Origin: Anaerolinea sp.
Lineage (GTDB): Bacteria > Chloroflexota > Anaerolineae > Aggregatilineales > Aggregatilineaceae
Assembly: GCA_020725705.1 (NCBI GenBank)
Contig: DYEN01000088.1
Coordinates: 1-40,481 of the forward strand
Length of the DNA stretch: 40,481 bases
Direction of reading: 5' to 3'
In this document: in pieces, positions 31,170-32,716 of the stretch
Layout of the letters: every line of letters starts with the position of its first letter
Position numbering within the stretch: position 1 is the first letter of the stretch
Notes under the pieces: model-generated
The model's database searches: none
The model's input: the letters and a program-made list of their open reading frames with translations, nothing else
Told to the model about the DNA's origin: nothing
Made by a program: the position numbers and the translations under genes

Positions 31170-31196
31170 AACCCCTGGCAGGGGTGCACAGGGGTT
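31170..31196 (-). terminator. terminator after the cytochrome domain gene
   Basis: AACCCCTG (31170-31177) and CAGGGGTT (31189-31196) are perfect inverted repeats. On the minus strand the stem is followed by a pyrimidine run TCTTCTTTTCC. It lies about 20 nt past the stop codon of the second cytochrome domain, which suggests that transcription continues through that domain. Confidence 0.75.
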
Positions 31197-31216: not shown

Positions 31217-31513
31217 TCAATCGTCGTCGTGCGGATCGTCTCCACCACGGCCTCGACCCCGACCGCGACCCCGCCCACGATCGTCGTCATCGTCCTCGCC
31301 GTGCGTGGCGACCAGATAGTCGATCAGCACGGCCCGCTCGGCTTCCGACAACTGCGCTCCATAGGATCGCATCCGGTCGACGATCTCCGTCCAGCCCTCG
31401 CGGTCTTCGTCCTTATCGTCGATCCGCGCGCGCGAATGGCAGACGGTACACCGCGTTTGGATCAGTGTCTCGCCATCCAACACTTCCGCAGGTGGTGCCG
31501 GAGCACCTGCTCT
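31217..31513 (-). pseudogene. second cytochrome c domain, in frame after a TGA stop of the propeller gene
   Basis: 98 codons, in exactly the same frame as the preceding gene and separated from it only by the TGA at 31516-31514. The linker RAGAPAPPAEVLDGETL is followed by a heme c motif C-T-V-C-H and a repeat of the first domain (DRM-x-SYGAQL, DYL). The tail has five aspartates, five RG dipeptides and an acidic end. A GTG at 31483 could start it separately, but the product would have no signal peptide and could not receive heme c outside the cytoplasm. It is either the readthrough part of a diheme protein, the end of a gene broken by a nonsense mutation, or a sequencing error. Confidence 0.65.
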
Positions 31514-32716
31514 TCAATCACCACCGGTCAGATAGTCGAGGACGGCCTCGCGCTCTTCGGGAGTAAGCTGGGCACCATACGAGATCATGCGGTCTACTGT
31601 CGCTTCCCACCCGGCGCGGTCCTTGTTGGCGGCGTCGATACGCTCGCGCGTGTGGCAGACGGTGCAGCGGGTGTTGACCAGCTCCTCACCGTGCGCGGCG
31701 GTCATGCCACCCTCTGCGCCGGCTCCCGCCGGCTCACCGGCGCTTGTCAGGTCTTCGAAGGTAAAGCGCTGGATCTCGAAGGTCTCCACCGGCGGATCGG
31801 AGCCGATGCTGGCGAACTTGGCGTGAACGACATAGGCGGCTCCGTCACGCATGGCAAGCGTGGTCGGCGACAGGTCGGCCTGAGTCTCCTGGCGAGATAG
31901 GATCGTCGCGCTGGCCCAGTCATCGTCGCTGCCCAGCACCACTACCTCGCGTGCCTGGGCGCCATCCACACTGGCGACCGCGTAGAGGTTGCCGTCTTCA
32001 TAGAGCACCATGCCGTCGATGCTGACCGGCACTTCCAGCTCAACCTGGGTGTAGGCTTCCGGGGCGTCAAGCGGGATCTTGTAGATCGCGCCCGCGCCCG
32101 AAACGGCCACCAACAGGAAGTTTCCCTCCGGATGATAGTCGATGCCGTTCAGACCAAACCCCTGCACGGCAAAATCATCCGACGCGAGGAACACCTCGCC
32201 GTTGCCCTCGGTGTCGACCACATAGATCACACCGCTGAAGCTGGTGGTCAGATAAGCGTTACCGTCCGCATCCACGGTGACATCGTTGCCGAAATCGCGC
32301 CCTTCGTCCAGATCCGATAGATCGACGAAGAACAACTCTTCGCCCGTGTCCAGGTCATACGCGCCCAGCGCAGCCGCGCCCGGCGCCTCAGGGTTTTGCG
32401 CGGCGCTGAAATCCGGCATGGCAACCAGAACGCGATTGCGCTCGGCATCCACATGCACGCCGGTGCTGGACAACCCTTCGTGCCCTTCGGCCAGCGGAGT
32501 AACGGTGCCATCATCTGCTACTGTAAAGACTCCGCCTTCGGTCAGCGAGCCTGTGACGAAGACGCCACGCTCGGCGTCCCAATCGATCCCTTCGGGGTGG
32601 TACCCTGGCCGCGCTGCGAGGATCAGTTCGGGGAGGTTATCTTCCTGAGCGTACAGCGCCAGCGGCACCGCCAATAGCGCAGCCAACAAAGTTACGATCA
32701 GAACACGCTTTACCAT
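31514..32716 (-). CDS. secreted beta-propeller protein with C-terminal cytochrome c domain
   Basis: A 400-residue protein. Residues 1-24 are a signal peptide (MVKRVLIVTLLAALLAVPLALYAQ). Residues 30-325 are a propeller of the SMP-30/gluconolactonase or NHL kind, with repeated D-G-N/T units (PGYHPEGIDWDAERGVF, GNDVTVDADGNAYLTTSF, GLNGIDYHPEGNFLLVA). A linker rich in Gly and Ala precedes a monoheme cytochrome c domain: C351, C354, H355, with M377 as the likely second iron ligand. The protein probably works outside the membrane in electron transfer coupled to a substrate bound by the propeller, which is unknown. The frame ends in TGA and then reopens into a second copy of the cytochrome domain. 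Confidence 0.85.
   Translation of the reverse strand: MVKRVLIVTLLAALLAVPLALYAQEDNLPELILAARPGYHPEGIDWDAERGVFVTGSLTEGGVFTVADDGTVTPLAEGHEGLSSTGVHVDAERNRVLVAMPDFSAAQNPEAPGAAALGAYDLDTGEELFFVDLSDLDEGRDFGNDVTVDADGNAYLTTSFSGVIYVVDTEGNGEVFLASDDFAVQGFGLNGIDYHPEGNFLLVAVSGAGAIYKIPLDAPEAYTQVELEVPVSIDGMVLYEDGNLYAVASVDGAQAREVVVLGSDDDWASATILSRQETQADLSPTTLAMRDGAAYVVHAKFASIGSDPPVETFEIQRFTFEDLTSAGEPAGAGAEGGMTAAHGEELVNTRCTVCHTRERIDAANKDRAGWEATVDRMISYGAQLTPEEREAVLDYLTGGD

Follow-up and report, generated by a model that had tools for sequence, protein, structure and literature searches.

The window, the whole 40,481-nucleotide stretch of Anaerolinea sp. DNA that was analyzed (contig DYEN01000088.1), carries on its minus strand a 400-codon gene (32716..31514) for a secreted protein composed of a beta-propeller and a C-terminal cytochrome c-like domain (Table 1). 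Both the sequence and the ORF translation end this gene at TGA 31516-31514. Past this stop, the reading frame runs on through 98 sense codons, including a second cytochrome c-like domain, up to TGA 31219-31217; translated without interruption, both domains would reside in a product of 499 residues. The coordinates and lengths reported for this arrangement in the first-pass annotation were correct. Reading of the frame revealed no further stop or frameshift in the 98 codons 3' of the first TGA, which is accordingly the single disabling stop in a two-domain frame that is otherwise coding-like. Openness of the post-stop stretch is not in itself strong evidence, as 5% of its mononucleotide shuffles were also open. 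The annotation had also placed a terminator 3' of the second domain and had stated that this domain lacks a signal peptide of its own. A terminator-like hairpin (31185-31171) does occur there, though as evidence it is weak, and the only export signal lies upstream of domain 1, the segment between the TGA and domain 2 being Ala/Pro-rich. The tail that follows domain 2 comprises an acidic stretch and an Arg-Gly repeat (DDDDDRGRGRGRGRGRGGDDPHDDD), and no such tail was found in the other family members that were read.

Table 1. Features of the interrupted propeller-cytochrome frame and its 3' flank, in window coordinates.
Feature	Position	Strand	Basis
Start codon with hydrophobic N-terminus, signal or anchor (residues 1-23)	32648..32716	-	Translation MVKRVLIVTLLAALLAVPLALYA; predicted helix 2-22
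SMP-30/gluconolactonase-like beta-propeller, residues about 31-318	31763..32626	-	PF08450, E 9.4e-6; AlphaFold2; PDB matches
Cytochrome c-like domain 1 (CTVCH)	31526..31687	-	PF09098/TIGR03908/NF052246 matches; family profile
In-frame TGA at codon 401, followed by A	31514..31516	-	Sequence; within residues 400-413, a linker predicted to be disordered
Ala/Pro-rich linker 3' of the TGA, lacking a signal peptide	31472..31513	-	RAGAPAPPAEVLDG; similar to GAAPPAEDMGAALDG, the sense linker in G001:C56
Cytochrome c-like domain 2 (CTVCH), intact	31307..31471	-	PF09098, E 6.4e-8; TIGR03908, E 7.8e-9; 16/16 near-invariant family positions kept
Acidic and Arg-Gly-rich tail ending ...HGEDDDDDRGRGRGRGRGRGGDDPHDDD	31220..31306	-	Translation; predicted disordered
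Second, terminal TGA	31217..31219	-	Sequence
Terminator-like hairpin, 3' of the whole two-domain frame	31171..31185	-	Weak: about as many sites expected by chance

The match of the propeller to PF08450 (Pfam) falls just under the cut-off of that model. AlphaFold2 returned a confident all-beta propeller, followed by two small helical domains of lower confidence that share the same helix order; the linkers were predicted to be disordered, and codon 401 lies inside the disordered segment. The best PDB matches were the propeller of Deinococcus radiodurans SodC (9m58/9m59) and propellers of the SMP-30/strictosidine-synthase-like type. The C-terminal SodC propeller is the best fold match and is also similar in sequence (E 3.4e-14), but the window protein has no superoxide dismutase domain, and cytochrome domains are appended instead. 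The two SodC entries are structures solved with and without calcium. Lactonases of the SMP-30-like type are likewise similar to the window propeller, both in sequence and in fold. Orthologues of the propeller, 59-31% identical and from the same family and order, were all devoid of this cytochrome domain, although one (L044) bears a different one, and no protein combining the propeller with two such domains was found in the searched genomes. Because the orthologous propellers lack the domain, the two-domain fusion is, as far as sequence comparison indicates, a local invention.

The annotation's view that the two CxxCH domains are homologous was borne out: PF09098 (Pfam) and TIGR03908/NF052246 (NCBIfam) each matched both domains independently, and a helical fold was predicted for both. 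The matches cover roughly the first 70 positions of the model for the heme-binding region of the quinohemoprotein amine dehydrogenase alpha subunit (PF09098, TIGR03908, PDB 1jju); the scores, however, are far below the TIGR03908 family cut-off, and the rest of that enzyme is absent. Domains 1 and 2 are 57% identical as proteins and 67% identical as DNA (156 aligned columns). Domain 2 has a CAI-like value of 0.716 and a GC3 of 0.80, compared to 0.724 and 0.76 for domain 1 with its upstream linker, and 0.37 and 0.49 for the downstream non-coding DNA. Nine or more random amino-acid changes over the 56 positions would spare all 16 conserved ones with P < 0.05. It is this homology and codon usage, rather than the openness of the frame, that constitute strong evidence that domain 2 is coding. 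The conservation of these sites and of codon usage despite the low DNA identity implies that domain 2 was translated, and subject to selection, during most of its long divergence from domain 1, and the stop would therefore be younger than the duplication; the domain looks recently expressed. Its branch in a domain tree was longer (0.89 against a median of 0.33), which may reflect some mild relaxation of constraint, in a tree of 56 columns that was itself poorly resolved (9 of 11 inner branches open).

A family profile of the cytochrome domain was run against 154 genomes of the order, yielding 42 matches in 18 of them. In this bacterial family, many secreted proteins that are unrelated to one another end in this domain of roughly 56 residues (L018-L029, L036-L054), nearly always in a single copy, and by this distribution it is apparently a mobile C-terminal module. 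A scan of genome contigs recovered distant single-domain cytochromes only, and a plasmid search gave no match. Besides that of the window, two tandems were identified, one in the same genus (G001:C56) and one in a further genome of the order (G013:C132). Both are sense-linked; the linker of G001:C56 reads GAAPPAEDMG, with no stop. Across the 154 genomes, no other tandem was split by a stop; the apparent stops inside other domain matches proved, in the loci that were read, to be true ends of genes over which the alignment had run on. The two domain copies in G001:C56:32212-32592 (L045) are near-identical in DNA, and their orthologue in the present genome (G000:C421, L002) has a single copy; copy gain or loss would thus be happening now in the genus.

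The interpretation that we favor, with a probability of about 0.65, is that the TGA arose recently by nonsense mutation, or is a variant of the strain, and truncates a diheme protein to the monoheme form usual in the family. In its ancestral state, the gene would have specified a single secreted protein in which the propeller was followed by a tandem pair of class-I-like cytochrome c domains, with a flexible linker between the two. The TGA would have entered this predicted disordered linker through a recent point mutation, which may be a strain variant in the sampled population, whereas the paralogous tandems have sense codons there; from these paralogues, we infer that 31514-31516 was ancestrally a sense codon. 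The cell would now make mainly the 400-residue monoheme form, with domain 2 left as an intact remnant reached by basal read-through alone. The effect of the loss is probably mild, given that the family ordinarily has only one copy of the domain. The locus resembles other bacterial genes interrupted by recent pseudogenization or truncation in having a single in-frame stop, an intact homologous frame beyond it, and no further decay. It differs in that the remaining product keeps the propeller and one heme domain, the family's usual number, and so may still work. A comparison of the codon in relatives had been proposed as a check; it furnished sense linkers in the paralogous tandems, none of them split by a stop, and no orthologue of the same architecture in the searched genomes.

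The main rival to a nonsense mutation, and a distinctly less likely one, is that the TGA arose as an error of base calling or of the assembly consensus in this metagenome-assembled genome, the real gene encoding an uninterrupted diheme protein. The assembly is fragmented (590 contigs) with 6.1% contamination, and decay of any kind is absent 3' of the stop, as would be expected if the stop were not real. Against this, internal stops were absent from 99 ABC_tran matches of this genome, which together span about 11,000 codons, and the Pfam domains of the neighboring window genes are intact, from which the general rate of nonsense errors must be low. An isolated error nonetheless keeps a sizeable share of the probability, because the site was picked for having a stop. 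Of the three options originally put forward, a recent nonsense mutation and a sequencing error are favored over read-through, the paralogous tandems in the genus and family being sense-linked. Functional read-through of the UGA by a near-cognate tRNA (e.g. tRNA-Trp), giving the monoheme protein and a minor secreted diheme form, is improbable. UGA followed by A is a leaky context in E. coli, and this stop has that context; moreover, both domains precede the terminator-like site, and domain 2, by its homology, codon usage, and conserved residues, is an intact coding extension whose retention would fit selection through read-through equally well. Yet the stop together with its extension is not conserved in relatives: no stop lies between the domains of any other tandem in the 154 genomes of the order, both of the others being sense-linked, and the propeller orthologues are without the domain. 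The decoding apparatus likewise appears ordinary. UGA serves as a normal stop elsewhere in the window, and among the scanned tRNAs none but tRNA-Sec has a UCA anticodon. A structured stimulator was not detected, downstream folds being weak (z-scores of -1.2 to -0.4). The anticodon stem of tRNA-Trp is a full 5 bp (A27-T43 to T31-A39), with A9 and G24 present; this tRNA was rejected as a UGA-reading species, having none of the features known for such tRNAs, namely an anticodon stem of 4 bp, A9C, or G24A (PMC13092985). Bacterial read-through usually amounts to 1e-3 to 1e-2 and is higher under stress (PMC10057733). At such basal levels, trace amounts of the long form would be made even without any special mechanism. 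It is slightly more doubtful again that a leaky linker UGA sets the ratio of secreted monoheme to diheme propeller-cytochrome and that this ratio shifts as stress increases read-through. Were it true, this would be a rare chromosomal bacterial case of a stop codon setting the heme number of a secreted redox protein.

Selenocysteine at UGA 31516-31514 was taken seriously, as the genome has a tRNA-Sec (UCA) and selB, both on contig C262 (G000:C262:12370-14466; L085, L093), and an fdhA with an in-frame UGA (G000:C489:4952-6961; L164) in the standard FdhA position, followed by a clear apical hairpin. A standard gene call would split this fdhA. In a relative, a match to an FAD-linked oxidase with one TGA inside was reported (G009:C1:136526-137884). 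The window locus shares with programmed UGA read-through and selenocysteine recoding an in-frame UGA with a conserved coding extension beyond it, in a genome with a Sec system, but it is without conservation of the stop, a stimulator, a convincing SECIS, or a Cys/Sec site. The codon lies in a disordered Gly/Ala/Pro linker with no redox role, and the linkers of the other tandems have no Cys at this position. Apical-G hairpins downstream of it are few and weak, their energies being within the range of shuffles, so that no convincing SECIS was recognized; Rfam gave no match at the linker UGA. On the evidence of the site and the SECIS search, selenocysteine was rejected as highly improbable. Two further readings of domain 2 are also very unlikely: that it forms a small gene of its own, translated by re-initiation, or that it is a duplicate that was copied together with its stop and never expressed. 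The first possible in-frame starts, GTG and TTG, do occur about 11 codons after the TGA, but domain 2 has no signal peptide, and the product of a separate gene would therefore not undergo periplasmic heme attachment. Nor would a duplicate that had been silent remain intact across 33% DNA divergence, and the end (tail) of domain 2 differs from that of domain 1.

With a recent nonsense mutation as the preferred explanation, the locus provides a snapshot of domain-copy turnover, in which the proteins of this family would freely gain, duplicate, and lose a small cytochrome domain at their C-termini.
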